From Tumebacillus sp. BK434 (GTDB lineage: Bacteria; Bacillota; Bacilli; Tumebacillales; Tumebacillaceae): 64,000 nucleotides of DNA. The notes beneath the pieces were generated by a model. It did not search any database. It saw only the letters and a program-made list of their open reading frames with translations, and was not told where the DNA came from. The stretch covers positions 930,001 through 994,000 of the forward strand of contig NZ_SLXS01000001.1 of NCBI RefSeq assembly GCF_004340785.1. Reading direction: 5' to 3'. The translations under genes were made by a program, and so were the position numbers. Of this stretch, positions 10,174 through 42,590 are shown piece by piece (the stretch's first letter is position 1; each line of letters opens with the position of its first letter).

Positions 10174-10203
10174 AAAAAAATCAGGCCCCTGTGCGGGGCC
10201 TGA
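10174..10203 (-). terminator. Terminator of the NRPS-exporter operon
   Basis: TCAGGCCCC pairs with GGGGCCTGA, followed by seven Ts on the minus strand, directly after the exporter stop. It marks the 3' end of the roughly 29.6 kb lipopeptide transcription unit. Confidence 0.93.
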
Positions 10204-10213
10204 CCTGATGCGC

Positions 10214-11488
10214 TTACGCCGACGGTGCGGTCGTTTCGGTGACTTTGCCCGCCTTCTCGCGCAAGATGCGGGTCAAGAACATCAGCACGAACACGGCGAT
10301 CACCGCCATGAACAGACCGGCTGCCAGCAGCGTGCCCCCGATCTTGATGTACGAGGTCAGCCACGCGCCGGTCGCCGGCGCGAGCAGCATGGAAGCTGCC
10401 TGCGTCGAAGCCGACACCCCGGTCACCCGGCCGATGAGATGGCCCGGCGTCTCCTTTTGGATGATGTAGGAGAACGGAATGGTCGCCGCCGCCGAGAATA
10501 CCCCAAAGAACATGAAGAACAGGAACCACAGCCACAGGTCCAGCGAGAAAATGCTGAGACCGCCGAGGCCGATCACACTGTTGAGCAGGCCGCAGACGAG
10601 AGCCAGCGCCACCAGCGTATGCAGCGGCTTGTTGTGCCATTTCGGCAGCGAGCCCATCAGCAGGGCACCGACGACCGAACCGATACCGAGTGCCGAGATC
10701 AGGTAGCCAAACGCGTGCTCGCCAAGCCCGATGTCTTTCGTCCAGATGACGAGCATGCCGTCATAGAGCATGACGATGAACATGCCGATCGTCATCAGGA
10801 TGATCGAAACAGACAAGATGCGCTTCGAGCGCACATGCCCGATGCCTTCTGCAAACTGCTTCCAGAAATGCGGTGCGCGCTCTTTGTTCGGGTCGGCCGC
10901 TTCGCTTTTCAGCGGCGGCATGAAGGACAGGAACAGCGCAGCAAGCAACAGGAAGCCGACTTCAACGAGGAACACCTGACGCGCGCCGATCAGCGGAATC
11001 AGAGCGCCGCCGAGCATCGGAGCGCCGACCTGCGTGAGGTACATCGACATCTGACCGAGCGACAGCGCTTGCGGCAGCATCTCTTCGTCGACGAGGGAAC
11101 GGATCGCCGACATGCGGGCCGGGTTGTACAACGTGGCGACGGTCGCCCGCAGGAAGACGAGGCAGAGCATCGCATACAGGTTGGGCACGAAGAACAGCCC
11201 AAGGATCAAACAGGCGCGGATTAACACGCAGATCACCATCAGCGCGCGGCGCGGCAGACGGTCGGCCCAGACAGCGACGAGCGGACCTAAGAAGATCCAC
11301 GGCAGGGACAAGACGATCATCATGTAGGCGATCTCCGTCGCCCCCATGCCCCATTCATACGCGATGACGACGGCCAGCGCCGTCATGTCCAGCCAGTTGG
11401 CCGAATCGGAAAACAGCGAGCCGATAAACAGGTTCCGGAACGAACGCTGTTTGACCGGCGCGAACATCGAAGGTCGCTTTTCACTCAT
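10214..11488 (-). CDS. MFS exporter co-transcribed with the NRPS genes
   Basis: A 424-residue MFS protein with about 12 membrane segments of the MFS_3/EntS-like group: an N-terminal FRNLFIGSLFSDSANWLDMTALAV, motif A-like AVWADRLPRRALMVI near residue 80, and a conserved NPARMSAIRSLVDEEMLPQALSL loop near 125-145. It begins 22 bp after the stop of the second synthetase with GGGAGGAAAC as binding site and is followed by the operon terminator. Position and orientation make it the likely exporter, and possibly the self-resistance determinant, of the lipopeptide. This is inferred from context; the family also transports siderophores and macrolides. Confidence 0.83.
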   Translation of the reverse strand: MSEKRPSMFAPVKQRSFRNLFIGSLFSDSANWLDMTALAVVIAYEWGMGATEIAYMMIVLSLPWIFLGPLVAVWADRLPRRALMVICVLIRACLILGLFFVPNLYAMLCLVFLRATVATLYNPARMSAIRSLVDEEMLPQALSLGQMSMYLTQVGAPMLGGALIPLIGARQVFLVEVGFLLLAALFLSFMPPLKSEAADPNKERAPHFWKQFAEGIGHVRSKRILSVSIILMTIGMFIVMLYDGMLVIWTKDIGLGEHAFGYLISALGIGSVVGALLMGSLPKWHNKPLHTLVALALVCGLLNSVIGLGGLSIFSLDLWLWFLFFMFFGVFSAAATIPFSYIIQKETPGHLIGRVTGVSASTQAASMLLAPATGAWLTSYIKIGGTLLAAGLFMAVIAVFVLMFLTRILREKAGKVTETTAPSA

Positions 11489-11510
11489 TTTGTTTCCTCC
11501 CAGTTGTCGA

Positions 11511-12384
11511 TCATTTCATCAATGCCCCTGGCTCGTCCGCCGCGATGGCGGCATGAGCCCGCTGCAACGCCGAGGACAGCTGCTCCGCCAGCATGAGCAC
11601 GTGCGGCATCGCGACGATCGTGTCGTGATCGCCCGGCACCTCCTGCACCGTCAGGCTGCCTTGCACCAGCGTCTCCCAGCCCAGCGCTTCCGTGCGCGCC
11701 GCGCCTTCCGGCTGCTCAGCCGCGCGGAAAAGGGTCATGTCTCCCGGAAACGGCACCGGACGATAGCTCCCGGCTGCCCGCTCATGCGCTGCCGACACGC
11801 GCAGCATGCGGCGGAACTGTTCGTACCCGAAGTCATGTGGCAAGATGTTGTGTGTTTTTCCCAGCTCCAAGAACGTGTGAAGCACCGCTTCGATGTTGTC
11901 GGGATCAAGTTGGTCATTCTTCACAGATAAATCAAGTTTAAGGCGTTTCGCCATGTTTTGGCAATAGGAGACGGAAAATTCTGCTTCACTGAGCAGTTCG
12001 CCTGCCCCGGCCTCGACAGGGGTTCCGGCGTCCAGCATCGCCAAGAGTTGCACCGTCTCCCCCGCGGCGCGGAGCTGCTGCGCCGCTTCATAGGCGAGCA
12101 CACCGCCAAACGACCAGCCGCCGAACAGATAGGGCCCTTGCGGCTGCACGCTGCGCAAGTGGCGCACATAGCACGCCGCCAGCTCTGCGACGCAGTCGGT
12201 CGCGGGGACGTCCGCCTCCAGGGCCGGTGCCTGCAGCCCGTAGACCGGCTGGTCAGCAGGCAGCAGCCGGGCCAGTTCGTAGTAGGCGAGCACATTGCCG
12301 GTGCCGGGATGGAACAGGAAGAGCGGCGTTTTGTCGCCGGCCGTCCGGATCGGCACAAGCGGGGATGCCTCCCGCGGCTCATCC
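11511..12384 (-). other. Thioesterase domain (chain release)
   Basis: The last ~280 residues of the terminal synthetase form an alpha/beta hydrolase with FLFHPGTGN, GGWSFGG (Ser3270 nucleophile) and the PGDHDTIV histidine loop near residue 3440. It ends the line; whether it cyclises the lipopeptide or hydrolyses it cannot be told from sequence. Confidence 0.9.
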
Positions 12385-15300: not shown

Positions 15301-18300
15301 GCTGCCGTCTCCCGGATCACCTGCTCGCCGACACCTTCGCGGGTGATGATGTTGGTGCGCAGCGCTTCATGCCGCTGCAGCAGTTCGGCAAAGCTCCGCT
15401 CCAGCGTTTCGGCCGCTAACGGTCCGGTCAGGCGCACATTGATCGGGATGTTGTAGACGGAGCTGTTCGGCTCCAGCTGGTCGATGAACCACAGGCGCTG
15501 CTGGGCAAACGACAGGGGGAGACGAGAATCCCGAGCCGCTTTTTGCAGCTTGAGAGAGGAGCTGTTCTGTACTCCTCTGCGCGCCTCGTCGATGCGAGCG
15601 GCCAGGCGTTCGAGGGTCGGGCATTCGAAGACGGCGCGCAAGGGCAGTTCGACGCCGCATACTTGGCGAATCCGGGTGATGACTTGCATCGCCAAAAGCG
15701 AATGTCCGCCCGCTTCAAAAAAGTGATCAGAGCGCCCGGCGCGCTCCAGTTGCAGCACATCCTGCCAGATGTCGGCGAGCGCTTGCTCGGCCTCGGTGCA
15801 CGGCGCTTCGTACGCGGCAGACCCGGTCCTTTGTTCCGGCTTGGGCAACGCTTTGCGGTCCACCTTCCCGTTGCTGGTCAACGGCAGCCGGTCGAGCACG
15901 ACATAGGCGGACGGCACCATGGCGGCGGGCAGGCGCTGTTCAAGGAAGAATCGCAGTTCGGGCGCGGTAAGCGTCTCGCCTTCGCGGGCCGTGACATAGG
16001 CGGCCAGCCAGGTCATGCCGTCATCTTTCCAGTCGAGCACTGCGGACGAGGTGACGGCCGGGTGTTGTGCCAGCAAGGCGGCGATCTCGGTCAGCTGGAT
16101 GCGCACGCCGCGGATCTTCACCTGATCGTCGACGCGGCCGAGGATGTCCAGCGTCCCGTCCGGACGGTAGAGCCCGCGGTCACCGGTGCGGTACAGCAGG
16201 TCGTTCGGGAACGGCGAGAACGGATTCGCGACAAAACGCGCCGCGCTCTCGTCACCTGCCGTCAAATAGCCCCGCGTGCGGAACGGTGTGCGGATGACGA
16301 TCTCGCCCGCTTCGCCGATGCCGCACAGCTGTCCCGCTGCTGACAAGATGAGCGCCTGCGTCTCGGGCAAGGTGTGTCCGACCGGTTGGATGCCGGCATG
16401 CGGTACGGGAGGGACGACGTAATAGCATTTGGCCAGCGTCGTTTCGGTCGGCCCGTACAGGTTGATGATCTCCCCCGCTCCCGGGAACCGGTCGCGCCAG
16501 GCGTTGACAAAAGAGTCGGTCAACGGCTCTCCGGCGGAGAACAGGCAGCGCAGGCTGGCCAGCGCGGCGTCTGCGGAGGCGCCTTGCAGCCAGGACTGGG
16601 CCAGCGAGGGCACGGTGTGCAGGATCGTGACGCCACTCTGGTCCAGCCACGGCAGGATCGTGTCGGCGCAGAGGTCGTCGAGCACAGGGGGCAGGCAGAG
16701 CGTCGCCCCGCTGGTCAGCGGCAGGAAGATGTCGCGCAGCACCACGTCAAACGACAGGTGGGTCAACTGCGCACTCTTGTCGTCAGGCGTTACGCCAAAC
16801 GTTTCGCGCTGCCAGTGCAGGAAGTGGCTCATGCCTTTGTGCGTGCCAAGGACGCCTTTCGGTACCCCGGTCGTGCCGGAGGTAAAGAACAGGTACGCGG
16901 CGTCTTCGCGCTGCACCTCAGGCAGCAAGCCAGCGCTTGGGGCGTCCACCCCTTGAATGCGCCCGCTGTGCGGCGAGATGATCGCGTGCGCGCCTTCCGA
17001 CCGTTCCTCGCAGACCGACAGCAGGCGCGCCGCCCCGGCCGCTTGCAGCATCTGCTCTTTGCGCGGGGCGGGCAATCCTCTGTCGATGGCGACGAGCACG
17101 CCGCCCGCGAGAAACACGCCTAGCATCGCGGCGATGCAGCCGAAGGAACGGGTGGCGAGCAGGGCGACTTTTTCCTCGCGCTGCAAGCCGGTCGCCAGCA
17201 GATGGTGTGCAATGTCTGTAGCGCGCGCCTGCAGCTCTTCGTAACTCCAGCTCATCGCGCCTTGTTCAACCGCCGTGCGGGACGGCGTTTGCACCGCCCA
17301 GGCGGCGACCGCTTCGTGGACCAGCTCATGTGCCGGTTCTTCAAGCGGTACGGACGGGTCGGGCAGGATGCCTTGTGCCGCTTTTGTGCGCAGCGAGTAA
17401 TCTCCGACCCGGCGGTCGCTTTCCCCTGCCGCTTGGACGAGCAGATGGCGGAACTGATCGAGCATCGCGTCGATGCGCGCCGGGTTGAAGTGGTCGGTCT
17501 GGTAGACGAGATTGATCGCCAGCCCCTCATCCGACTCGTACAGGTAGAGCGTCATCAGGAACTTCGACTCCGCCTCGACCCCGATCGTTTCCAGATGCAA
17601 CCCCGGCAGCTCGGCCGGCCCGACCGGCATGTTCAAATAGTTGATCAGCACGTCGAAGATCGGGTTGCGGTTCAGGGCGCGCTCCGGCTGGAGCTCCTCG
17701 ACGATTTTTTCGAACGGGAGCTCTTGGTGCGCGTAGGCGCCGAGCGTCGTTTCGCGCACGCGGCCGAGCAGTTCGCGGAACGTCGGGTTGCCGGACAGGT
17801 CGGTGCGCAGGGCCAAAGTGTTTAAGAACATCCCGATCAACGGCTCAGTCTCCACGCGGCTGCGTCCGGCGATCGGCGTGCCGACGATGATGTCCTCCTG
17901 GCCGGAGAGACGGGCGAGCAGCAGCTTATACGCGGCGAGTACCGTCATGAACAGCGTCGCACCTGTGTCGGCGCTGAGCGCTTTGAGCTGCCCGGTCAGT
18001 TCGGCCGGCAGCTGCAGGATGGCGTTGGCGCTCTGCCCCGCCGGCTGGACAGCCGGATCGGTCGGCAACTGCAGGCGCGGAAGTTCGCCGCCGAGCTTCG
18101 TTTTCCAATAAGTGACTTCCCCGTCCAGCACTGCGCCTTGCAGATGTTGGCGCTGCCAAACGGCAAAGTCGGCAAACTGCACGGGAAGCTCCGGCAGCGC
18201 GGGCTCTGCCCCGTTGACAAACGCTTCGTAGAGCAAAGTGAATTCGCGCACGAGGACGCCGATCGACCAGCCGTCGGAGATGATGTGATGCATGTTGAGC

Positions 18301-21300
18301 AGCAGCACATGCTCCTCGTCCCCCAGTTGCAGCAAGGTGACGCGGAACAGCGCGTCGCGGGACAGGTCGTAGGGACGCTTGGCTTCTGCGGCAGCCGTCT
18401 GCGCGACGGCCGCTTGCCGGTCTGCTTCCCCGCGCAGGTCGAGCAGCGGAATCTCCAGTTCCAGCGCGTCGGCGATGACCTGCACCGGCTGTCCGTCGCG
18501 CAGTTGGAACGTCGTGCGCAGCGTTTCGTGGCGGGAGAGGATCTCTTGGAAGCTGCTGTGCAGTGCAGTGAAGTTCAATTCCCCCGTCAAACGGAGCGTG
18601 AGCGGGATGTTGTAAGCGGCGCTGCCGCCTCCCTCCAGCCGGTCGACAAACCACATCCGCTCTTGGGCGAACGACAGCGGTGCCGTGCCGTCCGCGCGCT
18701 CGGTCTGCACCAGCGGTGTCAGTCCGGTATCGCCGGTTCCTGCCGAGATCCCCTCGATGCATCGGGCAAGCTCTTCGATCGTCGGAGCTTCAAACAGCGT
18801 GCGCAAGGGCAGGTCGATCTCAAATTGCGCCCCGGCGCGGGTGATCAGCTGGGTGGCGAGCAGCGAGTGGCCGCCGAGTTCAAAGAAGTTGGCGCGAACG
18901 GAGACGCGCTCCAGCCCCAGCACTTCGCTCCACAGTTCGGCCAGTGCCATCTCCAGCGGCGTGGTCGGCGCGATGTGCTCGGCGGCCGTTTCAAACAGCG
19001 AGCGGTCCGGCACGGGCAATGCTTTGCGGTCGAGCTTGCCGTTCGAAGTGACCGGCAGCGACGGCAGCAGCAGGAACGCCGACGGCACCATATAGTCGGG
19101 CAGTTTCGATTTGCACAGCGCCCGCAGCTCCTGCACATCAGGCTCCTTGCAGCCGACCGGCACGACATACGCGACCAGGCGTCTGTCGCCCGGCACGTCT
19201 TCGCGCACCAGCACGACCGCTTCCTGCACGAGCGGGTGACGGGTCAAGGTGACTTCGATCTCGCCGAGCTCAATCCGGAATCCGCGGATTTTGACTTGGT
19301 TGTCGACGCGGCCCATAAACTCGATCACGCCGTCCGGGCGGTACCGCCCCTGGTCGCCGGTGCGGTAGATGCGCTGCCCCGTCTGCGGGTGCGTGAGGAA
19401 GGAGGCGTTCGTTTTCTCTTCATCGCGCCAGTAGCCGACGGCAAGGCCGATCCCGCCGATGTACAGGTCGCCGGTCACGCCGGGCGGACAGGGTTCCAGC
19501 GCTTCGTTGAAAACGAAAAACTTCTGGTTGGCCATCGGGCGGCCATACGGAATGCTCGTCCAGTTCGGATCGACCTGCTCGATCGGGAACGTGATCGACC
19601 AGATCGACGCTTCGGTCGCCCCGCCGAGTGAATGGACGGAAATGCCCGGCACCAGTTCCTGCAGGTGCACCGGCAGGCTCAGCGGAATCCAGTCGCCCGA
19701 CATCCAGACCAAGCGCAGGCAGGACGGGAGCCCTTTTTTGTGCAAGATCGCATATTCGGCCAGCAGCTTGGCCAGCGCCGGCGCGGAGTTCCAAACGGTG
19801 ATCCCGTGGCAGAACAGCAGGTCGGCCCAGTGCGCCGGATCGAGCGCTTTGTCCGCTTCCGGCAGCACGAGCGTGCCGCCTGCAGCCAAGGTGCCGAAGA
19901 TGTCATAGACGGACAGGTCAAAGCCCAGCGAGGAGACGCCGAACACCTTGTCGTCAGGCGTCACCGCAAAGCGGCTGTTCATGTCGAGCAACGTGTTCAC
20001 CGCGCCCTGATGGTCGATCACCACACCTTTGGGCTGCCCGGTGGAGCCGGAGGTGAAGATGACATAGGCGAGGTCCTCCGGCGTTTGCACGACCGGCAGC
20101 AGGTCTGCGCGCTGCGCTTCGATCTCCGTACTGTCGACAGCGATCACTGCCACCCCTTCCGGCCAGTTGAAGCGGTCGAGAAGATGGCTTTGGGTCAGCA
20201 CATAACGCACTTGACCGTAGTCGAGCAGGTGCAAGATGCGCGCTTCCGGCGCTTTCGGATCGATCGGCAGGTAGGCGGCGCCGGCGGCGAGGATGCCGTA
20301 GACGGCGACGACCTGCTCCCAGCCCTTTTCCATCACGACGGCGACCAGCGTGTTTTTGGCGACGCCGTGCAGACGGTGCCCGACTTGGTTGGAGCGCTCG
20401 AACAGCTCGCGGTAGGTCAAGGCTCGGTCTGGAGCGCGGACGGCGATCTTGTCTTCGTGCAGCGGGACTTGCCGGTAGAACAGGGTGTGCAGCAGCTCTG
20501 TGGAGACGGGCGCTTCGGTGCGGTTCCACTCGGTGAAGACTTGCCGACGCTCTGCAGCGGTCGCCAGCGGAAGCGCGGCGAGTTGCTGCTGCGGGTCGGA
20601 GGTGATGCCTTCGAGCAACTCCAGAAAATGGGCGCTGAAGCGTTCGATCGTCGCCGCGTTGAACAGGTCGGTGTTGTATTCGAACACGCCGTACAGCCCC
20701 TGTTCTTTTTCGACCATCGCCAGCGTCAGATCGAGCTTGGCGGTGCTGTTGCTCACTTCGACCGTCTCGAGGGTCAGGCCGGGCAGTTCCAGTTTGCCGA
20801 GCGGCGCGTTTTGCAGCACGAACATCACTTGGAACAGCGGCGGATGGCTCATGTTGCGGTCCGGCTGCAGCTCTTCGACCAATTTTTCGAACGGCAGGTC
20901 CTGGTAGTTGTACGCTTCGAGCACCGTCGCGCTGACCGCTTGCAGCAGTTCGGCAAACGACTGCGTGCCGGACACGCGGCTGCGCAGCACGAGCGTGTTG
21001 ATGAACAGGCCGATCAATCGCTCCGTCTCGCCCCGGCTGCGACCGGCGATCGGGGTGCCGACGGTGAGGTCGTTCTGGCCGGTGTAGCGATAAAGCAAAG
21101 TGTTGAACGCCGCCAGCAGTGTGATAAAGAGCGTGGTGCCTTCGCGGCGGCTCAGCTCGTTCAGTTTGACGGTCAGCTCTTGGCTCAGTTGGAACGCGTG
21201 CGAGCTGCCGTTGAACGTCTGCACCGGCGGCCGCGGACGGTCGGTCGGCAGCTGCAGCACGGGAAGTTCGCCATCGAGCTGTCGGCGCCAATAGGACAGC

Positions 21301-21920: not shown

Positions 21921-21932
21921 GTTACTTCCCTC

Positions 21933-24900: not shown

Positions 24901-25119
24901 TGCGCGACTTGCACCAGCTCTCCCGCCGCCTCCCGGAAGGCGGCGCGGAGCACGTCGTGGCGACGGGCGATCTCGAGCAGGCTTTGCTCCACCGCCCCGG
25001 CGTTCAGCGTTCCGGTCAGCCGCACCACGCCCGGCACGTTGTAGAGCGGGCTGCCCGGCAGCAGCTGATCTAACAGCCACATGCGGCGCTGAGCGGTGGA
25101 CATCGGCGCCTGCGTGCCC
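21933..25119 (-). other. NRPS module 5 (C-A-PCP), small residue, Ala-like code
   Basis: The pocket reads DLYNNCLVYK, related to the alanine code DLFNNALTYK but with Tyr, Cys and Val substitutions, so the assignment is uncertain. Condensation motif HHIVADGWSLG; carrier FFDLGGHSLL (Ser5895). The protein ends about 65 residues later in a basic tail rich in Arg, Lys and Ser, which may dock to the next synthetase. Confidence 0.75.
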
Positions 25120-31100: not shown

Positions 31101-34100
31101 CAGCGCTGTCTCTTCGCGCTCCACTGTCGGAAGTTCGGTGAGATCGGACAGCGGAATGGTCACGGCCTGCGCGCTGCGAATGCGTTGCACCGCTTGGTCG
31201 TTCACCACGTCGAACGTGGTGCGCAGCGCTTCGTGGCGCTGGACAATCGCGGCCATACTCCGCTCCAGCGCTGCCCGGTCCAACGGCCCGCGCATCCGCA
31301 CTGCGCCTGCGATGTGATAGGCGGAGGAATCGCTGTGAAACTGATGGAGCAGCCACATCCGCTCCTGCGCATACGACATCGGCAGGTCGCCGCCGCGCGC
31401 CGTTCGCCGGATCGGAGCGGCGTGGGCCCCCCTTGCTCCGTCCACAAAAGCGGCCAGTTCCGCCACGGTCGGCGCTTCGAACAGTTGGCGCAGCGGCAGT
31501 TCGATGCCGAACGCCGCTTCGATGCGGGTCACAGCCTGCGTCGCGAGGAGCGAATGCCCGCCCAGCGCGAAGAAGTCGTCGTGAATGCCGACCGGTTGCG
31601 CTTGCAGCACCGTTTCGAACAAAGCGCAGAGCTGCGCTTCCACCGCCGTACGCGGTGCTGTAAACTCCCGGTCGCTTGCGGTCCACTCAGGTGCCGGGAG
31701 CGATTTTCGGTCCACCTTGCCGTTGGCGGTGAGCGCAAAAGCATCCATGGCGATGAGCTGCTGGGGCACCATGTACGACGGCAGCGACGCTTGCAAGTGA
31801 CGGCGCAGCGCGTCCGTCCCTTCCGCCGCTTCGTGCAGCGTGACGTAGGCGACGATGCGCTTGTCGCCCGGCACGTCTTCGCGCACCAGCACGACCGCTT
31901 CGCGCACGTTCGGGTGTTTGGCCGCCGCCGCTTCGATCTCGCCGAGTTCGATGCGGAAACCGCGCACTTTGACCTGATTGTCGGTGCGGCCGAGAAACTC
32001 GATCGTGCCGTCCGCCAGGCGGCGTACCATGTCGCCCGTCTTGTACAGGCGGCCGTGTTCGGTGTTGATGAACCGCTCTGCGGTCAGCTCCGGCTGGTTC
32101 CAATAGCCGAGCGCCACCCCGGCCCCTCCGAGGTGCAGTTCGCCCGGGACCCCGACCGGCACCGGCTGTCCGGCTCCGCTTAAGATCACCACGGTCGTGT
32201 TGGCGATGGCGCGTCCAATCGGCAAGGACGGCAGCAGCAAATCTTCCCGTTGCACCTCGTGGCAGACGGCGAACGTCGTGCACTCCGTCGGTCCGTAGCC
32301 GTTGATCAAACGGCAGTCGAGTTGCTCCACGACTTTCTGCACATGCGGCACCGACAGCACATCGCCGCCCGCCAGCAGCTGGCGCACGCCGCGCAGCCCT
32401 TCGAGGTGGTGTTCCGCCATCTGGTGGAACAGCCCGGCTGTCAGCCACAGCGTGCTCACGCCGTGCCGCTGTATCACGCGTCCCAGCTCTTGCAGGGACG
32501 CTTGGCCCGGCGGGAAGATCACCAGCTGTGCCCCGTTTAGCAGCGCGCCCCAGATCTCGAACGTCGCCGCGTCAAACGCGACCGGCGCGAACTGCAGAAA
32601 CACGTCCCGCGCGGAGAACTCCACATAATCGGTGTCTTTTACCAGCCGCACCACGCCGCGATGCGGCACCATGACCCCTTTGGGCTGCCCGGTCGAGCCG
32701 GACGTGTACATCACATAGGCCAGGCTGTCCAGATCGGTGGTCAGACCGAGGTTGTCCCCGCTCTCTTCCGCATACGTCCCGTCGACGCACAGAATCTGTG
32801 CCCCGTGTTCCGGCAGTTTCGCAAGCAGGCGTTCCTGGGTCAGCAATAGCGACACGTTCGCATCTCCCAGCTGGTAGCGCAGACGTTCGGCCGGGTAATC
32901 GGCATCAAATGGCACATACGCCGCGCCGGCTTTTAAGATCGCCAGCATCCCGACGACCAGCTCCAGCGAGCGCTCGATGCAGAATCCGACCATCTGCCCT
33001 TGCAACACGCCGTGCTGTTGCAGACGGCGGGCGAGGCGGTTCGCCCGCTCGTTCAGTTCACTGTACGTGAGGCTGTCCTTCCCGAACACGAGCGCCACTG
33101 CATCGGGCGTCGCGTCCGCCTGCACTTCGAACCATTCGTGGACGCCAAGCTGCAGAACCTCCGGACGTGCGGTGTCGTTCCATAGCGCCATTTGCGCCTG
33201 CTCCGCAGCGCTGAGCATCGGCAGCTCGGCAATCGGACAGTCCGGATGTTGCACCGCCGCTTGCAGCAAGGTCTGGAAGTGTCCGGCCAGCCGCCCGATC
33301 GTCGCCCGGTCAAACAGGTCGGTGCGGTATTCGATCGCCCCGGCCAATTGGCCGTCCTGCTCTTCCATCATCAACGTCAGGTCAAATTTGGCCGTACCGC
33401 TGTGCATCTCGACTTGCGCGTGCGAGACGCCGGGCAGCTTCAGCTCGGCGAGCGGTGACGGCTGCCAGGTGAACATCGCCTGGAACAGCGGCGAATGGCT
33501 CCTGCTCCGCTCTGGCTGCAACTCCCCGACCAGCTTTTCAAACGGCACATCTTGGGCGGACAACGCTTCCAGCGCCGTCGTTTTCACGCTCTCCAGCAGT
33601 TGGCGGAACGTCATGCTGCCGTCGACCGCATCGCGCAGCACCAGCGTGTTGACGAAAAAGCCGATCAGCGGCTCGATCTCCACGTGGCGGCGTCCGGCGA
33701 CCGGAGTGCCGACGAGCAGGTCTTCCAAGCCTGTGTAGCGGTACAGCAAGGTCTTGTACGCCGTCAACAGCAGCGTGAACAAAGTTGTGCCCTCCACCGC
33801 CAGCTCACGCACCTGTTCGCTCAGCGACGCAGGCAGGGCAAAGGACAGCACCGCCCCTTGGGAGGACTGCACAGCGGGACGCGGACGGTCGGTCGGCAGT
33901 TGGAGGACGGGCAGCTCCCCGCTCAACTTTTGCTTCCAGTAACTGAGCTGCTGCTCCAACACCTCCTCCCGCATGTCCGCCTGCTGCCAGACGGCATAGT
34001 CTGCGTATTGCACAGCCAGCGGCTGCAGCGGCGACGCTTCTTGCTTCATAAATGCGGCATACAGCGCCGACAGTTCGCGCAGCAAAACGCCCATCGACCA

Positions 34101-37100
34101 GCCGTCCGCCGCGATGTGGTGCATCGTGAGCATCAGCACATGATCGTCAGCAGCCAGCCGGAGCAGTTTCGCACGCAACAGCGGCCCTTTTTCCAGATCG
34201 AACGGCAGCTGTGCCTCGGCGAGGGCGATGTGCGGCACCTCTTCCTCCATGCTGTCCGTCACGGTGAGCGTGAACCCGGTTCCGTCTGTGATCTGCTGCA
34301 CAGCGCTTCCTTCCGTCACGGTGAAAATCGTCCGCAGCGCCTCGTGACGAGTCACGATCTCCTGCAAACTCCGCTCCAGCGCAGACACGTCCAGCTCTCC
34401 GCTCAAACGCACCGCGCCGGGAATGTTGTAAAGGGCGCTCGCCCCTTCCAGACGGTCGATGAACCACAAACGCTCCTGCGCAAACGACAGCGGCAACGCA
34501 GCATCCCGAGACACCGGCACCAGCGGCGTCGCCCCGCTGCCGGCGAGGTGCTGCACCTCCGCGGCCAGTTCGGCTACCGTCGGGGATGCGAACAAGGTGC
34601 GCAGCGGCAAGTCGATCGCAAAGCGGCGGTTCAGGCGCGAGACGGCCTGCGCCGCCAGCAGCGAATGTCCGCCAAGGGCAAAAAAATTGTCGGACAGGCC
34701 GACCTGCTCCACGCCGAGCACCTCTTGCCAGACCAAAGCGATTCCCGCTTCCGTCTCCGTGCGCGGTGCCACATATGCCCCTTCGCCTGCGCCTGTCCAG
34801 ACCGGTGCGGGCAGCGCGTTGCGATCCACTTTGCCGTTGGCGGTTAGCGGCAGCCGGTCCAGCGCGACAAACGCGGACGGCACCATGTACTCCGGCAGGC
34901 GGGCCTTCAAAAAGGTGCGCAGGTCCGCCTCACCCGCCCCGACCACATACGCGGCCAGACGCTGATCGCGCAGGACGACGGCCGCTTCCTGAACTTCTTC
35001 ATGCCCGCGCAGCATCGCTTCGATCTCGGCAAGCTCGATGCGAAAGCCGCGCAGTTTCACCTGATCATCGAGGCGGCCGAGGAACTCCAGGCTCCCGTCC
35101 TCCCGCCAGCGCACGCTGTCCCCGGTGCGATACAAGCGTCCCGCTCCATACGGATGGAGGATGAATTTCTGCTCAGTCTGCTCCGGCTTCTTGAGATACC
35201 CGAGCGCAAGTCCTGCCCCGCCAATGTACAGTTCACCGGGCACCCCAACCGGCACGAGCTGCTGCGCCGCGTCGAGCACATACACCTCTGCGCCCGCGAT
35301 CGGCTTGCCGATCGGCACGGTGCTTTGCGCATCCTCCGGTGCACAAATGTGGAACGTGGTGTCGATCGCCGCTTCCGTCGGACCGTACAGGTTCACGAGT
35401 TGCCCACGCAAGCGCGCATGGAACGTCTGCACGTGCTCGGCGGTCAGCGTTTCCCCGCCGCAGAACAGGCGCCGCAGTGACACGCACGCCTCCACATTCG
35501 GCTCTTCCAGCATCAGCTTCAGCATCGACGGCACGACTTGCAGCGTCGTCACGCCGTGCGTCTGCACCGCCTGCACCAAATACGCCGGGTCGGCCTGACC
35601 GCCCGGACGCGCCAGCACCAGCTGCGCCCCTGCGAACAGCGGTGCATAAAACTCCCACACCGACGCGTCAAAACTAAACGCGGTCTTCTGCAGCACCACA
35701 TCGTCTGCGGTCAGCGGGAATTGCTGCTGCATCCAGCGCATATGGTTGACGATCGCCCGATGCGGGATCACGACCCCTTTCGGCTGGCCGGTCGAACCGG
35801 ACGTGTAGATGACGTATGCCGGGTCGTCTTCTGTCGCGTTCGGGATGCTGCAAGGCTCCTCACACGCTTCCACAAACTTGTCGAGGCAGATCGTAGCTCC
35901 CTTTTCAACTGGCAGTTTGTCGAGCAGATGCTCCTGCGTCAGCAGCAGTTTGGCATCCGCATCTGCGAGCATGTACGCGATCCGCTCAGCCGGATAGCCC
36001 GGATCGACCGGCACATACGCACCGCCCGCTTTCATCACACCGAGCAGGCCGACCACCATCTCGACCGAACGCTCGGCGCACAGCGCGACGAGCACGCCCG
36101 GCCCGACTCCTCGCGTCACAAGGGCGTTGGCCAGAGCATTGGCCCGTGCGTTCAGTTCCGCATAGGTGACGTGACCCGCTTCCGAGACGACGGCGATTCG
36201 CTCAGGCGTCCGCTCCGCCTGATGCTCAAACAGCTGATGCAGACAGCCGCCGCGCTCAAACGGCGCCGGCTGCCCGCGCCACGCCAGCACCGCTTCACGC
36301 TGTTCGAGGGTCAGCAGCGGCAGCGCGGCGATTTTCGCCTGCGCATCTTGCACGATGCCGCCGAGGACTGTCACAAAATGCTCACACAGCCGTTCGATGC
36401 GCACCGTGTCGAACAGGTCGGCGTTATATTCGAACACCCCGGCCAGTTCGCCGTCACGCTCGGCCATCGTCAGCGCGACATCGAGCTGCACCCCGCTTTG
36501 CGTGAACGGCAGCGACTGCACCCGCAGCCCGTGTGTCTCGTACACCGCCCCGGCCTCGCCGAGCGCAAAGGCGCCGAGCCCGCCGCCCCCGGCCAGATGC
36601 GATTTTTGCAACGTGAACATCGTCTGGAACAACGGCGGAAAGCTCGGATCGCGATCCGGCTGCAGCCGCTCAGCCAGCAGCGCGAACGGGTAGTCCTGAT
36701 GCAAGAGCGCAGCGACCACAGTCGCTTTGACCTCCTGCAAAAACGCGGCAAACGACGTCTCCCCGCCGAGTCGCGCCCGCAGCGGCACCGGATTGACGAA
36801 ATAGCCTGCCGTTTCGGAAAATTTGGCCGAGCTGCGCCCGACGGTCGGCGTTCCGACCACGATGTCGTCCTGTCCGGTCACGCGATGCAGGAGCACCTGA
36901 TACGCTGCCAGCAGCGCCGCATACAGCGTCACGCCCTGCTCCTGCGCCAAGCGCTTCAGTCCTGCACTCAGTTCTGCCGGCAGCGCAAAGCGCACGCTTG
37001 CGCCGCGATCGGTCAGCACCGCCGGGCGGGGACGGTCGGCCGGCAGCTGCAAGAGCGGCACGTCTGCGCACGTCTGCTCCCAATACGCCTGCAGCGCCTC

Positions 37101-39809
37101 GCCTTTCGGGCTCTGCAGGAGCGCCTGCTGCCACTGCACATACTCGGCATAGCCCGCTTTAACCGGAGGAAGTTTCAGCCCGGCATACAACTGACCGAGC
37201 TCTTGCAGGAACACGCCAAACGTCCAGAAGTCCACGGCGATATGATGCACATGGAACAGCAGGACTGGCCCCGCTTCCCGCAAAAACAGATGCACACGCA
37301 GCAACGGCCCTTTTTCCAGATCAATAGGGGTGCGGGCTGCTGCCGCCAGACGCGCCTGCAACTGCTCCTCCGTCCACCCGCAGGCATCTTCGACCGCCCA
37401 AAACTCCCCGGCCGTCTCCTTCACGTTCAGCTTCGGTTCGCCGTCCACATCGACAAAGACGGAGCGCAGGGCATCATGTCTGTGGGTCAACTGCTCAAAC
37501 GCGCGCTGCAAGCGCGGCACCTCGAGGTCTGCCGGCAGTTGCACCGCCCGCGCCACATGATAGGCGGTGCTTTCCGGAGCCAGCTTCTGCAGGAACCACA
37601 GCGAGCGCTGCCCGTAGGACAGCTCGTCTGAGCGCATAGCGGAAAGTCCTGTTGCATGTCCAGTGGCGGACTCTTTCGGCAGGCCATGCGTCAGATCGCT
37701 TGACTGCCCTTCCGATTGCCCTTCCAATAGCCCTTCCGCCTTAGCCTCCTGCGCAAGCAGGCCCTCCAGCTGTCCGCTCAGCTCGGCAGCCAGCTCGTTT
37801 ACGGTCACGCCTTCCAGCAGCAGTGCAAACGGCACATCCAGTCCGAACTGCTCCTCGACAGCATTTTTCACCTCGACCGCCATTAGCGAATCGAGCCCCC
37901 ATTGCGTCAGCGGCTGCCCGGCCGTCAAGCGCGATGGGTCCAGCTGCAGCACCTGCGCCAGTTTTTGCAACAGCTCCTGCTCCAAACTCGCTCGCCGATC
38001 CGCCAGATCGAGCTTCAGCAGCAGCTCGCGGGTCACGTCTGCCGGCGCTTCGCTCGTCAGATCTTGTGCCGCCTGCACGCGGTCTGCCCTTGCATCGGCC
38101 ACAGCGTCGAGCGTTCCATCCAGAAAGCGCTCCTTGCATTTGTGGCGCTGAATCTTGCCGGACGACGTTTTCGGAATGCTCGCCGGTTTGAGCAGCACGA
38201 CCGCGTAGACTTGCAGCTCGTGCTGACTGGACACCCGTTCGCGTATGGAGGCGATGACAGCGTTGAGATCCGCTTTGCGATGCGAACGCTCGATCTCCTG
38301 CACGATCACCAGCCGCTCTTCCCCGTCCGCTTCGACAGCAAAAGCCGCGCCGTTGCTGTTGTGCACGGCGGGATGGCTTTCCTGTACAGTAAACTCGATG
38401 TCCTGCGGGTAGTAGTTGCGCCCGCGGATGATGATCAGGTCTTTGCGGCGGCCGGTGATGTACAGTTCGCCTTCCTGCAGAAAACCGAGATCGCCCGTCC
38501 GCAAATACGGCCCTTTTCCTGCAGCGGCCAGCTCCGCGCCAAACGTTTCCCGCGTCTGCTCCGCGCGCTCCCAATACCCTTTTGCCACCGAGGGCCCGTT
38601 CACCCAGATCTCGCCGACCTGCCCGTATGCACATGGCGTCAGACGCTCCGGGTCGACGACCAGCACCTCCTGATCGCCAAGCGCCGGCCGCCCGGATGAG
38701 ACCAAGAGCTGCGCGTCCGCTTCGTCAGAAGCCGTCTCCGCAAAATTGTCTTTGAGCGCAGACGCCGAAAATGCGTGTGCGATCGGCGCTTCCTGCTTCC
38801 GGCCGCCCGTGACGAACAGCGTGCCTTCCGCCAGTCCGTAGCACGGGTAAAACGCTTCTTTACGGAATCCGCACGGAGCGAAAAACGCCGCAAAACGATC
38901 CAGCGTCTCTTTGCGAATCGGCTCCGCGCCGGTAAACGCGTTTTCCCAGGACGAAAGGTCCAGCGTATCGCGCTGCTCCGGCGTGATTTTCTGCACGCAG
39001 AGCTCATACGCAAAATTCGGTCCGCCGCTGACCGTTGCCCCGGTGCGGGAGATCGCCTCCAGCCAGCGTAAAGGTTTCGTGATAAACGACACCGGCGCCA
39101 TCAAGGTCATGGGATACCCGGTAAACAGCGGCTGCAAAATCCCGCCGATCAGCCCCATGTCGTGATACGGAGGCAGCCAGACCACCCCGCTGCTTTGGCG
39201 GGTCGTGCCAAACGACCGCTCGATCAACGCCAGGTTGTGCAGCAGGTTACCATGGGTCAGCATGACCCCTTTCGGAAGTGCTGTCGATCCGGATGTATAT
39301 TGCAAAAAGGCCAACGTGTCGGCCGTCACCTGCGGTTCGCGCCAGGCATCGGCCCCCGCGTCAGACAGCTCATCGGTGACGATCCAGTCCAGCCGCGCCA
39401 ACTCCGGCTCTGCGGCCGCTCGGCGCGCCACGCTGGCGGCGATCGTTCCGGTCGCCAAAGCAAACGCCGCCCGCGAATCGGCGACGACCGCCTGCAGGCG
39501 GCTCAAGTTCCCGTTCTGCCGCGGCGGATAGGCAGGCACCGCAAATACGCCTGCATAGAGACACCCGAAAAAGGCGATCAGGTACTCCATCCCCGGCTGG
39601 AACAAGAGCAGGGCACGCTCCCCTTGCGCGTTGCGGCTCTGCAACAGTGCGGCCAGCGCCCGCGCCTTGCGATCGAGCTCGCCATAGGTCAGCAGCTCTT
39701 CCTCCCCGCTGTCGGCCAAGAATCTATAAGCGGTCGCCTGCGGCTCCCGCTGCGCCCGAAAGCGCAGCAGTTCCAGCAAGGTGGCAGCCGCAAGTTGTAA
39801 CTCCTCCAT
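21933..39809 (-). CDS. Lipo-initiating non-ribosomal peptide synthetase (FAAL-ACP, five C-A-PCP modules)
   Basis: A 5958-residue synthetase. Residues 1 to about 590 are a fatty acyl-AMP ligase (YTSGSTALPKG near 173; ITGRRKDLIIIRGRNYYPQDIE near 465), followed by an acyl carrier with GLDSL (Ser641). The first condensation domain has HHIAVDFW near 855 instead of HHxxxDGW. Five C-A-PCP modules follow with carrier serines 1716, 2753, 3791, 4834 and 5895. No epimerase, methyltransferase or thioesterase is present; the chain passes to the second synthetase. Pocket readings are Gln, Val, Val, Ala and an Ala-like code. The start is ATG 39809, seven bases after GGAGGG; a TTG at 39824 overlaps that site. 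Function: acylates an N-terminal Gln with a fatty acid and builds residues 1-5 of a lipopeptide. Confidence 0.95.
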   Translation of the reverse strand: MEELQLAAATLLELLRFRAQREPQATAYRFLADSGEEELLTYGELDRKARALAALLQSRNAQGERALLLFQPGMEYLIAFFGCLYAGVFAVPAYPPRQNGNLSRLQAVVADSRAAFALATGTIAASVARRAAAEPELARLDWIVTDELSDAGADAWREPQVTADTLAFLQYTSGSTALPKGVMLTHGNLLHNLALIERSFGTTRQSSGVVWLPPYHDMGLIGGILQPLFTGYPMTLMAPVSFITKPLRWLEAISRTGATVSGGPNFAYELCVQKITPEQRDTLDLSSWENAFTGAEPIRKETLDRFAAFFAPCGFRKEAFYPCYGLAEGTLFVTGGRKQEAPIAHAFSASALKDNFAETASDEADAQLLVSSGRPALGDQEVLVVDPERLTPCAYGQVGEIWVNGPSVAKGYWERAEQTRETFGAELAAAGKGPYLRTGDLGFLQEGELYITGRRKDLIIIRGRNYYPQDIEFTVQESHPAVHNSNGAAFAVEADGEERLVIVQEIERSHRKADLNAVIASIRERVSSQHELQVYAVVLLKPASIPKTSSGKIQRHKCKERFLDGTLDAVADARADRVQAAQDLTSEAPADVTRELLLKLDLADRRASLEQELLQKLAQVLQLDPSRLTAGQPLTQWGLDSLMAVEVKNAVEEQFGLDVPFALLLEGVTVNELAAELSGQLEGLLAQEAKAEGLLEGQSEGQSSDLTHGLPKESATGHATGLSAMRSDELSYGQRSLWFLQKLAPESTAYHVARAVQLPADLEVPRLQRAFEQLTHRHDALRSVFVDVDGEPKLNVKETAGEFWAVEDACGWTEEQLQARLAAAARTPIDLEKGPLLRVHLFLREAGPVLLFHVHHIAVDFWTFGVFLQELGQLYAGLKLPPVKAGYAEYVQWQQALLQSPKGEALQAYWEQTCADVPLLQLPADRPRPAVLTDRGASVRFALPAELSAGLKRLAQEQGVTLYAALLAAYQVLLHRVTGQDDIVVGTPTVGRSSAKFSETAGYFVNPVPLRARLGGETSFAAFLQEVKATVVAALLHQDYPFALLAERLQPDRDPSFPPLFQTMFTLQKSHLAGGGGLGAFALGEAGAVYETHGLRVQSLPFTQSGVQLDVALTMAERDGELAGVFEYNADLFDTVRIERLCEHFVTVLGGIVQDAQAKIAALPLLTLEQREAVLAWRGQPAPFERGGCLHQLFEHQAERTPERIAVVSEAGHVTYAELNARANALANALVTRGVGPGVLVALCAERSVEMVVGLLGVMKAGGAYVPVDPGYPAERIAYMLADADAKLLLTQEHLLDKLPVEKGATICLDKFVEACEEPCSIPNATEDDPAYVIYTSGSTGQPKGVVIPHRAIVNHMRWMQQQFPLTADDVVLQKTAFSFDASVWEFYAPLFAGAQLVLARPGGQADPAYLVQAVQTHGVTTLQVVPSMLKLMLEEPNVEACVSLRRLFCGGETLTAEHVQTFHARLRGQLVNLYGPTEAAIDTTFHICAPEDAQSTVPIGKPIAGAEVYVLDAAQQLVPVGVPGELYIGGAGLALGYLKKPEQTEQKFILHPYGAGRLYRTGDSVRWREDGSLEFLGRLDDQVKLRGFRIELAEIEAMLRGHEEVQEAAVVLRDQRLAAYVVGAGEADLRTFLKARLPEYMVPSAFVALDRLPLTANGKVDRNALPAPVWTGAGEGAYVAPRTETEAGIALVWQEVLGVEQVGLSDNFFALGGHSLLAAQAVSRLNRRFAIDLPLRTLFASPTVAELAAEVQHLAGSGATPLVPVSRDAALPLSFAQERLWFIDRLEGASALYNIPGAVRLSGELDVSALERSLQEIVTRHEALRTIFTVTEGSAVQQITDGTGFTLTVTDSMEEEVPHIALAEAQLPFDLEKGPLLRAKLLRLAADDHVLMLTMHHIAADGWSMGVLLRELSALYAAFMKQEASPLQPLAVQYADYAVWQQADMREEVLEQQLSYWKQKLSGELPVLQLPTDRPRPAVQSSQGAVLSFALPASLSEQVRELAVEGTTLFTLLLTAYKTLLYRYTGLEDLLVGTPVAGRRHVEIEPLIGFFVNTLVLRDAVDGSMTFRQLLESVKTTALEALSAQDVPFEKLVGELQPERSRSHSPLFQAMFTWQPSPLAELKLPGVSHAQVEMHSGTAKFDLTLMMEEQDGQLAGAIEYRTDLFDRATIGRLAGHFQTLLQAAVQHPDCPIAELPMLSAAEQAQMALWNDTARPEVLQLGVHEWFEVQADATPDAVALVFGKDSLTYSELNERANRLARRLQQHGVLQGQMVGFCIERSLELVVGMLAILKAGAAYVPFDADYPAERLRYQLGDANVSLLLTQERLLAKLPEHGAQILCVDGTYAEESGDNLGLTTDLDSLAYVMYTSGSTGQPKGVMVPHRGVVRLVKDTDYVEFSARDVFLQFAPVAFDAATFEIWGALLNGAQLVIFPPGQASLQELGRVIQRHGVSTLWLTAGLFHQMAEHHLEGLRGVRQLLAGGDVLSVPHVQKVVEQLDCRLINGYGPTECTTFAVCHEVQREDLLLPSLPIGRAIANTTVVILSGAGQPVPVGVPGELHLGGAGVALGYWNQPELTAERFINTEHGRLYKTGDMVRRLADGTIEFLGRTDNQVKVRGFRIELGEIEAAAAKHPNVREAVVLVREDVPGDKRIVAYVTLHEAAEGTDALRRHLQASLPSYMVPQQLIAMDAFALTANGKVDRKSLPAPEWTASDREFTAPRTAVEAQLCALFETVLQAQPVGIHDDFFALGGHSLLATQAVTRIEAAFGIELPLRQLFEAPTVAELAAFVDGARGAHAAPIRRTARGGDLPMSYAQERMWLLHQFHSDSSAYHIAGAVRMRGPLDRAALERSMAAIVQRHEALRTTFDVVNDQAVQRIRSAQAVTIPLSDLTELPTVEREETALRLAREDAREPFDLTKDELVRLSLLRLGAEDHLLVMTLHHIISDGWSLGVLLQELSVLYGGGELPELTVQYADYAQWHRSWLEADALASQLDYWKHKLGGSLPVLQLPTDRPRPAVQTTHGAHLPFALSKELTEALKGLGQAGGETLYMILLTAFNVLLHRYTGQDDILVGSPIAGRNRVEIENLIGFFVNTIVLRSELPGETSFRSLLKQVKQTALEAYAHQDVPFEKLVSVLQPERSTSHPPLFQVMFALQNAPLALELPGLRLERLTLDNQTAKFDLSLLLEETEQGLTGFLEYNTDLFEQATIARLAQHFQTLLQAAVLHPDRPIAELPMLTAAERGQLAQWNDTERPEALKFGVHQWFERQTAATPDAAALIFGEDSLTYRELNEQANRLARRLQKRGVAPGQLVGLSLERSFELVIGMLAILKAGAAYVPFDADYPAERLRYQLEDANVAVLVTSERMLDRLPEQHAQILCIEEPFAEESAENLGIAGDGDSLAYMMYTSGSTGQPKGVMVPHRGVVRLVKDTDYVEFSARDVFLQFAPVAFDAATFEIWGALLNGAQMVIYPPGQASLQELGRVIQRYGVSTLWLTAGLFHQMAEHHLEGLRGVRQLLAGGDVLSVPHVQKVVEQLDCRLINGYGPTECTTFAVCHEVRQEDLLLPSLPIGRAIANTTAYVLDEAGQEVPIGVRGELHLSGAGVALGYWQRPELTAERFLNTEHGRLYKTGDMVRRLADGTIEFLGRTDNQVKVRGFRIELGEIEAAVAKHPTVSESAVLVREDQPGDKRIVAYVILKQPEDRTGELRRDLKAVLPSYMMPQHIVAVEAMALTANGKIDRTSLPAPAAAEEQREYAPPRTAAEAMLCALFEEVLHTQPVGIHDDFFAAGGHSLLATQAVTRIQAAFGIEMPLRKLFELPTVAELAAFVTGTEAGAADAAPIVRVARDGHLPLSFAQERMWLLHQLLRETTAYHIPGAVRMHGTLDREALERSFATIVNRHESLRTSFATVNGQAVQQVRAEQATEIQLTDLTALPANEREATALRLAREAAQRPFDLTSDALVRLALFRLGEGDHLLVMVMHHIISDGWSLGVLLEELSMLYGGGELPELEVQYADYAAWQRDWLQGENLDRQLNYWKRKLSGSLPVLQLPSDRPRPVLQTTKGAHLPFALSKELTEELRALGQADGATLYMVLLTAFNVLMYRYTGQDDLLVGSPIAGRHRAEIEPLIGFFVNTLVLRSDLSEEPAFSDLLAQVKQTALEAYAHQDVPFEQLVGELQPERNLSHTPLFQVMFALQNAPLALELPGLTLERVSLDIQTAKFDLSLLLEETEGGVSGIFEYNTDLFDEATIERMAGHFHTLLQSVIQDREQKISHLPLLTEAEAAHLYHNEAQAHEFAPSCLHQLFEAQAARTPDAVAIQSETGALSYAELNERANRLAQYLQEQGAGPDGLIAICMARSPELVIAILAVLKSGAAYVPIDPAYPADRIAFLLADGGAPLLLTESQLLPELPPHDAKAICLDRDGALFAAKDTANPKAAVGPQHLAYIIYTSGSTGQPKGVAIEHRQASSLIQWAHEVFPPEELQGVLFSTSVCFDLSIFELFAPLCCGGRVILAQNALQLPAMAAKDQVTLINTVPSAIAELLRLEAIPPSVKVVNLAGEPLKLGLVSALYEVATLEKVYNLYGPSEDTTYSTYERMERGLQTKPLIGVPITGTQAYVLDAAQQPVPFGVPGELFLGGAGVARGYLGRPDLTAEKFVEDPFSKQPHARMYRTGDLVRALPDGRLDYLGRLDHQVKVRGFRIELGEIEAALLQHPAVRETVVMVREDAAEEKRIVAYLVTKAGELTTAELRDWTGRTLPGYMIPSAFVRLEAMPLTANGKVDRKALPAPDGARHDGTPYLAPQTDTEQKLSAIWSDVLGAERVGLLDNFFEIGGHSLKATQIASRIAQELCVEIPLRDLFEHPTVSQLAVRVEQAQHAGHEAEAMTILPYARQELPDRSGTQAPMSTAQRRMWLLDQLLPGSPLYNVPGVVRLTGTLNAGAVEQSLLEIARRHDVLRAAFREAAGELVQVAQHSVDLALQHLDLTHEPQADREKLALAAAAEEVRRPFDLASGPPMRAMLIKLEAEEHLFLFLFHHIVADGWSLGLFVREWSALYEAFSRGLPSPLTELRIQYADYAQWQQQRFAGDVLTRQLSYWKEQLGGELPVLQLPTDRPRPAVQTYAGRVHRFALGADLTQRLHDLSRREGATLFMTLLSAFKTLLYRYSGQTDLLIGTPIAGRSTADVEALFGLFMNTLVIRSDLSGNPSFRDVLQRVKEATFGAFAHQEVPFELLVDELQPVRDMSYSPLFQVMFILQNAPMPAPQLQDLAVKVLEVDSDTAKFDLTLALEEQGDELQASLEYNTDLFDDSTVERFAGHFIRLLENIAEKPQQAVATLSFLSADELHQELAVWNGNRTTAAWKNLPYTLPELFERQVRHTPDRTAIVDGERRVTFAELNAQANRMAHALRARGVGAETLVGLCMERSVDMLVAILGILKAGGAYVPLDPNYPAERVQYILQHAGAALLITQAALTGLFGTERETLIWETAQAELAAQSEFNLPLLAEPDNLAYVIYTSGSTGLPKGVAIEHKSAVALVNWADETYSPEEYAGVLFSTSVCFDLSVYEMFVPLSLGGTILLADHALHLPLLPAKGEVTLINTVPSAIQELLRIGEVPPGVKVVNLCGEPLKGTIVHELYAIPTVEKVYNLYGPTEDTVYSTVALMSRELAGNPPIGAPLPGTYAYVLSPELQPLPVGAAGELFLGGAGLARGYLHQPELTAERFVADPYAQQKGQRLYRTGDLVRRSPDGTLDYISRIDHQVKVRGFRIELGEIEAVLCADSHVQSAAVTVRTDHGDARIVAYVVATAALTAADCRQIVQQKLPDYMVPSAWVMLDALPLTPNGKIDKKALPAPEQARSAETPYVAPRSELEQVLCDIWAQQLGVEQVGITDNFFDLGGHSLLATQLVSRVRETLQVELALRDLFAARTVEQFAAVVEKARQSAQETVSITKSSNRKTRTRSRS
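25120..28284 (-). other. NRPS module 4 (C-A-PCP), alanine predicted
   Basis: The pocket reads DLFNNALTYK (from FDLSIFE, LINTVPS, VVNLAGE and YNLYGPSEDTTYS), the code I know from alanine modules such as those of linear gramicidin. Condensation motif HHIISDGWSLG; carrier FFEIGGHSLK (Ser4834). Confidence 0.78.
28285..31399 (-). other. NRPS module 3 (C-A-PCP), valine predicted
   Basis: The pocket reads DAFWLGGTFK (FDAATFE, STLWLTAG, QLLAGGD, NGYGPTECTTF), a valine code. The adenylation region is nearly identical to that of module 2. Condensation motif HHIISDGWSLG; carrier FFAAGGHSLL (Ser3791). Confidence 0.82.
28811..29612 (-). repeat. Near-identical adenylation segment, copy in module 3
   Basis: About 800 bp align without gaps to 31925-32726, exactly 3114 bp (one module) away. 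In a 180-base sample (29161-29340 against 32275-32454) only five bases differ, far fewer than between other modules. Confidence 0.85.
31400..34514 (-). other. NRPS module 2 (C-A-PCP), valine predicted
   Basis: The pocket reads DAFWLGGTFK, the same valine code as module 3. Condensation motif HHIAADGWSMG; carrier FFALGGHSLL (Ser2753). Confidence 0.82.
31925..32726 (-). repeat. Near-identical adenylation segment, copy in module 2
   Basis: Partner of 28811-29612; covers the adenylation core from the substrate pocket through the A8 region. The ungapped match across a one-module offset points to recent module duplication or gene conversion. Confidence 0.85.
34515..37639 (-). other. NRPS module 1 (C-A-PCP), glutamine predicted, acyl-accepting condensation domain
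   Basis: The pocket reads DAWQFGLIDK (FDASVWE, TLQVVPS, RLFCGGE, NLYGPTEAAID), a code used for glutamine in plipastatin/fengycin-type synthetases. The condensation domain has HHIAVDFW, with Phe where Gly is normal, as befits a starter domain taking an acyl group from an ACP. Carrier FFALGGHSLL (Ser1716). Confidence 0.8.
37640..39809 (-). other. FAAL-ACP loading module
   Basis: A fatty acyl-AMP ligase (about 590 residues) activates a free fatty acid as the acyl-adenylate and transfers it to the following acyl carrier (WGLDSLMAVEV, Ser641). Features separating it from CoA ligases are the NYYPQDIE segment, PPYHDMGLIGG near residue 215 and GGPNFAYELC near 280. A polar, low-complexity linker (repeated E-G-L-x-E-G/S units) joins it to module 1. 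Confidence 0.9.
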
Positions 39810-40059: not shown

Positions 40060-40935
40060 ATGCGCAAACGTCAGCTCGAAGTGAACGGCATCCACTTGAT
40101 GCTTACCGAATTCAGCCAAGAAGGCGAACCCTTGCTGCTGCTGCATCCCGGCGGGGTGTTTGCATCGTTCGTCTGGCACGAGATCGCTCCGTTTTTCCAA
40201 GACCACTACCATGTCTTTGCATTCGACCTGCGCGGCCACGGCGAATCGCAGGCGCCGCCGCACGGCTACTCGATGGAAGCGCAGACGAGCGACATTTTGG
40301 CGGTGCTCGATCAGCTCGGCATCGAGAAGACGCACATCGTCGGCAACTCGCTGGGCGGTGACATCGCGACCCATTTTGCAGCGCAATACCCGGAGCGCAT
40401 GCTGTCGCTGGTCAACATCGACTCCGGCATCATCAACTTCACCGGAGAAAACGGCGAAGTGTCGGACGCAAAAGAAGTCATTTTACACAACCGCGCCCAG
40501 CGCCAAGTCCCGGTCTATGCGTCGCCCGAGGAATTTGTGGAACAAGCGACCGCAGAATGGGTGCCGCTCGACAAGCCGAGCGCTGCCGTCATCCAGCACA
40601 AAATCCTGCGTCCGGCCCCCGGCGGCGGCCTCACCTATGTGCAATTGCCGGACATCGGCGTACAGGTGATGGACATGGTGTGCGACATGCGCTTTGAGAC
40701 CTGCTACCCGCAGATCACCTGCCCGGTGCTGTTCCTGCCGGCAGCGAAAGAAGACAACTTCGACCGCAAACTGCAGCTGATCGAACAGCACCAGAAACAC
40801 CTGTCGCACTCCAAAACGGCCGTCATCCCGGAATCGGAACACATCCCGATGCTCGATCTGGCTCAGGAGTATGCGGAAGTCATCCTCGCGTTTCTGGACG
40901 AAGTTACGAAAGCACAAAAAAACCTTGCGCGATAA
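40060..40935 (+). CDS. Alpha/beta hydrolase
   Basis: A 291-residue alpha/beta hydrolase. The oxyanion region is LLLLHPGG (near residue 28), the nucleophile Ser97 sits in GNSLGG, and the catalytic His261 in ESEHIP. FDLRGHGES near 55-63 is the usual strand after the first helix. No signal peptide. The family includes esterases, haloperoxidases and lactonases. It is divergent from the NRPS operon and shares its control region. The GNSLGG elbow differs from the GWSxGG/GHSMGG of NRPS type II thioesterases, so an editing role is not supported by motif. The ATG follows GAAAGGAAGGAA. Confidence 0.8.
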   Translation: MRKRQLEVNGIHLMLTEFSQEGEPLLLLHPGGVFASFVWHEIAPFFQDHYHVFAFDLRGHGESQAPPHGYSMEAQTSDILAVLDQLGIEKTHIVGNSLGGDIATHFAAQYPERMLSLVNIDSGIINFTGENGEVSDAKEVILHNRAQRQVPVYASPEEFVEQATAEWVPLDKPSAAVIQHKILRPAPGGGLTYVQLPDIGVQVMDMVCDMRFETCYPQITCPVLFLPAAKEDNFDRKLQLIEQHQKHLSHSKTAVIPESEHIPMLDLAQEYAEVILAFLDEVTKAQKNLAR

Positions 40936-42542: not shown

Positions 42543-42590
42543 GAGCTCGTCCCTCACTTTCCGTCTTGTAACACTAGCATTCCAGTTACT

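Follow-up and report, generated by a model that had tools for sequence, protein, structure and literature searches.

A predicted FAAL-started lipo-octapeptide assembly line in an NRPS-rich Tumebacillus genome

The window analysed here, a 64,000-nucleotide stretch of contig NZ_SLXS01000001.1 of Tumebacillus sp. BK434, carries three collinear genes on its minus strand (39809-10214) in the order FAAL-ACP-5x(C-A-T), 3x(C-A-T)-TE and MFS exporter; as a whole, we read them with good confidence as a complete, FAAL-started lipo-octapeptide assembly line. The kind of machinery is well known, because FAAL/ACP/C initiation, collinearity and the codes for Gln, Val, Ala and Cys all follow from known families. 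The product, by contrast, looks new: no lipopeptide or other product of the genus Tumebacillus was found in the literature searched. If the reading is true, a cultivable root bacterium would make a lipopeptide in which a free thiol has an acidic neighbour, a combination unlike that of any lipopeptide known to us.

The features of the operon, as they lie in the window, are the following.

39809-21933, minus strand: NRPS1, with an ATG start at 39809 and a GGAGGG ribosome-binding site
38103-39758, minus strand: FAAL domain of NRPS1 (Pfam AMP-binding plus DIP2-like C-domain; solved FAAL-type relatives)
37782-37979, minus strand: ACP fused to the FAAL (PF00550, E 4.5e-15, residues 616-681; WGLDSL Ser motif)
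34503-37652, minus strand: module 1, C-A-T, DAWQFGLIDK (Gln), starter-type C (Pfam, alignment, C-domain grouping)
31392-34502, minus strand: module 2, C-A-T, DAFWLGGTFK (Val) (Pfam, alignment)
28272-31391, minus strand: module 3, C-A-T, DAFWLGGTFK (Val); A and T like module 2, C like module 4
25143-28271, minus strand: module 4, C-A-T, DLFNNALTYK (Ala) (Pfam, alignment)
21936-25142, minus strand: module 5, C-A-T, DLYNNCLVYK, Ala-type pocket with Cys301 (Pfam, alignment)
21920-11511, minus strand: NRPS2
18690-21920, minus strand: module 6, C-A-T, first of NRPS2, DLYNWSLIWK (Cys), ordinary C rather than Cy
15528-18689, minus strand: module 7, C-A-T, DVRHFALLAK, Arg239 family, predicted acidic residue
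12390-15527, minus strand: module 8, C-A-T, DDVQVSTIDK, Ser-related family (alignment, motif check)
11595-12326, minus strand: thioesterase domain, GWSFGG (PF00975, E 1.8e-35)
10214-11488, minus strand: MFS exporter gene (PF07690, E 7.8e-39; syntenic in T. avium)
10178-10206, minus strand: intrinsic terminator, a 12-bp GC-rich hairpin plus T-run

The earlier note had placed two collinear synthetases (FAAL-ACP plus five modules, then three plus TE), an MFS exporter and a terminator in one unit, and this layout is borne out: three minus-strand genes are separated by 12 nt (NRPS1-NRPS2) and 22 nt (NRPS2-MFS), Pfam domains and the motif check agree on the modules, PF07690 matches the exporter, and the hairpin and T-run run from 10206 to 10178. 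The mechanical open reading frame of NRPS1 starts at TTG 39824, five codons longer than the ATG 39809 version. No PPTase, regulator or precursor gene was found within the operon. Upstream, at 40060-40935, lies a divergent alpha/beta-hydrolase gene. Adjoining the cluster, window positions 40953-42557 encode a glycosyl hydrolase of family 18 that carries three S-layer homology domains and is conserved in T. avium. A PALP gene at 42640-43854 was considered as a precursor enzyme and dropped, being threonine-synthase-like and below cut-off.

Is the line intact? Pfam recovers AMP-binding (FAAL) and PP-binding domains, then C-A-PCP eight times and a thioesterase, every hit well clear of its cut-off, and the C3, A3, A5, A7, A10 and T motifs are intact across the modules, with the TE serine in GWSFG; the A8 pattern missed module 5 solely through a G to S change at one position. 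An inactive A or PCP domain, the flaw that the earlier note had held would undo its reading, was looked for and none was found. Judged on sequence, this is a real orphan cluster that is probably functional. The best solved matches of the FAAL domain are FAAL-type enzymes (7r7e, 3kxw and FadD32, E to 1e-190), and its NCBIfam list is headed by FAAL models, though these fall below curated cut-offs. The first C domain, which clusters with other FAAL-following C domains of the genome, reads HHIAVDF instead of HHxxxDG. A damaged domain was considered and dropped: HHxxxD[F/L] is found in 12 of 12 FAAL-following C domains in the genus loci (and in somewhat more than half of those in the other loci fetched), so that HHIAVDF is a starter-type signature rather than damage.

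The line would then work as follows. The FAAL would adenylate a fatty acid and load it onto the fused ACP; the starter-type C domain would couple Gln to the acyl chain; the other seven C-A-T modules would then contribute Val, Val, Ala, a small residue of Ala type, Cys, probably an acidic residue and the residue of the Ser-related family; the terminal TE would release the chain, linear or cyclised; and the MFS protein, in its putative role, would export the lipopeptide.

The residue assignments rest on pocket codes re-derived by aligning 155 A domains from the window, the genome's other NRPS regions and the T. avium locus. The reading Gln-Val-Val-Ala-(Ala-like)-Cys offered earlier was reproduced at all six positions, and the closing X-X could be narrowed: module 7 is probably acidic, and module 8 falls in a distinct, Ser-related family. 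The Gln, Val, Ala and Cys assignments of modules 1-4 and 6 use well-known codes of the Stachelhaus table; the codes of modules 5, 7 and 8 had no match in the full-text literature searched. The A domain of module 5 sits within the Ala-type clade, beside DLFNICLVYK and DLFNVCIVYK, and therefore likely loads a small, Ala-type residue. Pfam found no E, Cy, MT or Ox domain in either NRPS. The absence of an E domain, together with the grouping of C domains 2-8 with ordinary elongation C domains, points to residues that are all L; dual C/E domains may be present among the C domains. The C domain of module 6 (HHIISDG) likewise groups with ordinary C domains, and the Cys A domain is thus not preceded by a Cy domain. 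Because tailoring domains and genes are absent, the product would carry a free Cys and an unmodified acyl-Gln.

The TE could instead close a ring, either a thiolactone via Cys6 or a ring via the side chain of module 8, in which case the Cys or the C-terminus would not be free. Type I TEs hydrolyse or macrocyclise (PMC11253843) and the predicted residues close to the C-terminus include nucleophilic side chains, whereas the TE itself, which shares 36-41% identity with the genome's other TEs, gives no hint; ring closure is a sizeable possibility that falls somewhat short of probable.

What does module 7 load? All 12 A domains with Arg239 in the data set are monophyletic (support 1.0), with His or Gln at 278, and the C domains directly preceding these fall into a single clade of 13 (support 0.97), whose thirteenth member is a C domain that ends an open reading frame. 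Pockets of the Arg239 type also occur on plasmids of Streptomyces, Azospirillum and Bradyrhizobium; one Streptomyces module, DARHFSLMIK, adjoins an amino-acid racemase gene. Six DARHFALMVK (Arg239) modules lie elsewhere in the window's genome, at C1:240001-336061 (L103-L107), in a series of NRPS genes of which several carry a TE of their own. The A domains that select methyl-Asp and Glu for microcystin likewise pair Arg239 with His278, and the side-chain carboxyl is used; their codes were not found in the full-text literature searched. When methyl-Asp is condensed in microcystin, it reacts through its beta-carboxyl (PMC2174460), and by analogy the residue of module 7 may be joined through its side-chain carboxyl. 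Surfactin synthetase reads an acidic side chain by means of a basic residue at 239, and K239E shifts Glu towards Gln (PMC11355689); for this reason module 7 most likely loads an acidic residue as well.

A bolder version of the product may be drawn: a lipopeptide whose free Cys precedes an acidic residue linked via its side-chain carboxyl (an isopeptide-type backbone), built by an Arg239 A domain and a co-evolved C clade that recur in several Tumebacillus lines, with the pocket also present in other phyla. This version is less likely than not. Alternatively, the same assembly line might activate a neutral or unrelated amino acid at module 7, the Arg239 pocket meaning something else. That DVRHFALLAK is absent from the literature searched, and that none of the solved structures matching this A domain gave a substrate or such a label, would allow for this, whereas the surfactin precedent, the dedicated C clade and the racemase neighbour of one family member speak against it and leave it doubtful. 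With an acidic residue as the preferred reading, the Arg239 family and its own C clade amount to a directly testable substrate rule.

Module 8 closes the line with DDVQVSTIDK, a member of a 12-member DDxx family (support 1.0). A DNA pattern search found this family in each of the three genus genomes and in not one of the 28 further genomes searched. In three FAAL lines, that of the window and two more in the same genome, the code marks the final module, directly ahead of the TE. The strongest solved relatives of this A domain include Txo and EntF, which are Ser domains; by sequence relationship the family is nearest to Ser domains and genus-wide. Dap as the residue of module 8, suggested by the presence of SbnA/SbnB, is weakened because this pair belongs to a NIS siderophore locus that also holds two IucA/IucC genes, and it would now be a guess. 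That locus (L152, 12006-18538; about 397000-403540 of C3 of the window's genome) is staphyloferrin B-like; in it, the SbnA/SbnB pair precedes two IucA/IucC synthetases and a citrate-lyase-like gene.

Could the window's cluster itself make a siderophore or another metallophore, and not a surface-active or antibiotic lipopeptide? The MFS protein resembles TIGR00900/EntS, but below curated cut-offs, and a Cys beside an acidic residue could bind metal; against this, siderophore tailoring or uptake genes were not found adjacent, and the genome has its staphyloferrin B-like locus elsewhere, which together make a metallophore improbable.

A syntenic orthologue with the same flanking genes is present in T. 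avium AR23208 (NZ_CP021434.1, about 4390270-4415411); within the genus, the comparison covers three genomes, and in the third a search for close orthologues of both flanking genes found none. The two clusters share most domains at 75-90% identity (FAAL 86%, TE 76%), which argues for maintained function, and they share the Gln-Val-Ala start and the Cys-DVRHFALLAK-DDVQVSTIDK-TE end. FAALs of clusters for the same compound are 73-99% identical, as against roughly 45-62% otherwise (PMC9113097); the T. avium FAAL falls in the same-compound range, whereas the FAAL paralogues of the genome (53-67%) fall mostly in the other. FAAL relatives in other genera are 46-59% identical among the best 80 loci listed, the T. 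avium orthologue not being one of these. Apparent frame breaks affect the MFS gene, the NRPS2 start and the nearby pepV in T. avium (C1:4388974-4400718; L100, L101), through sequencing or assembly error or through decay. A decayed or silent cluster in the window, to which these breaks might point, is most improbable, since its reading frames and catalytic motifs are intact.

The orthologues differ in length: T. avium has seven modules (four plus three), with one Val fewer than the eight of the window, and its T3-C4-A4 block before the Cys module is foreign (code DPLTNGMVYK, C 26-31% identical). In the window, module 3 is a chimera, its A and T like those of module 2 (82% and 86%) and its C like that of module 4 (72%), as expected of a tandem A-T-C duplication; by these identities, the window has one Val A-T-C unit more than T. 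avium. Within the duplicated pair, two matching segments stand out.

31850-32748, minus strand: putative A-core conversion tract, module 2 side, mostly 84-98% nucleotide identity to module 3
28734-29634, minus strand: putative A-core conversion tract, module 3 partner, ~0.9 kb

The 84-98% identity of this 0.9-kb tract, set against about 52-84% around it, suggests gene conversion in the A core of modules 2 and 3. The pattern seen between T. avium and the window matches the published view of the A core as a hotspot of NRPS recombination (PMC8097286), and the seven- and eight-module pair serves as a natural experiment on how a peptide grows by one residue.

The NRPS-rich background is more striking than the cluster itself. 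Strain BK434, from poplar root, was described with 4,646,936 bp, 57.94% GC and 34 contigs, and its 16S identity to T. avium is 99.15% (PMC7256259); the assembly used here has 4,645,837 bp in 32 contigs. By counts with HMMs derived from the domains of the window itself, open reading frames that carry NRPS domains (loci L103-L142 plus the window) take up about 543 kb, or about 11.7% of the 4.65-Mb genome; the counts give about 148 A domains and 11 lines that start with a FAAL. At first look, the three genus genomes hold 143-179 C-domain candidates, as against 21-39 in the sister genus. No paper on the NRPS richness of these genomes was found.

How does the line compare with systems already described? 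A FAAL:ACP:C(III) start and a CAT-TE end are known from lipopeptides of the daptomycin group (PMC9113097), with which the window shares FAAL, ACP, a specialised first C domain, CAT modules and a terminal CAT-TE. It differs in that FAAL and ACP form one protein with the NRPS (for A54145, a FAAL-ACP fusion is reported; PMC9113097), that the exporter is of the MFS rather than the ABC type, that E domains are lacking and that the peptide is different and shorter. Closer to home, two sister FAAL lines of the same genome (C1:483363-515082 and C2:435127-470053) likewise have an Arg239 module near the end and DDVQVSTIDK-TE last; unlike the window, they are longer, have a Tyr-type code in place of Cys and place one more Ala-type module between Arg239 and DDVQ, and their FAALs are 53-54% identical to that of the window. 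In another phylum, a FAAL-NRPS on pUSDA123-1 of Bradyrhizobium japonicum USDA 123 (CP126019.1; L168) also has adjoining DVRHFALLAK and DLYNWSLIWK modules, but in the opposite order, and with a Ser-Leu start, a penicillin-acylase gene and a PKS part. Finally, whereas heterocyclising Cys NRPSs of the bacitracin/yersiniabactin type use a Cy domain, the Cys module of the window has an ordinary C domain.
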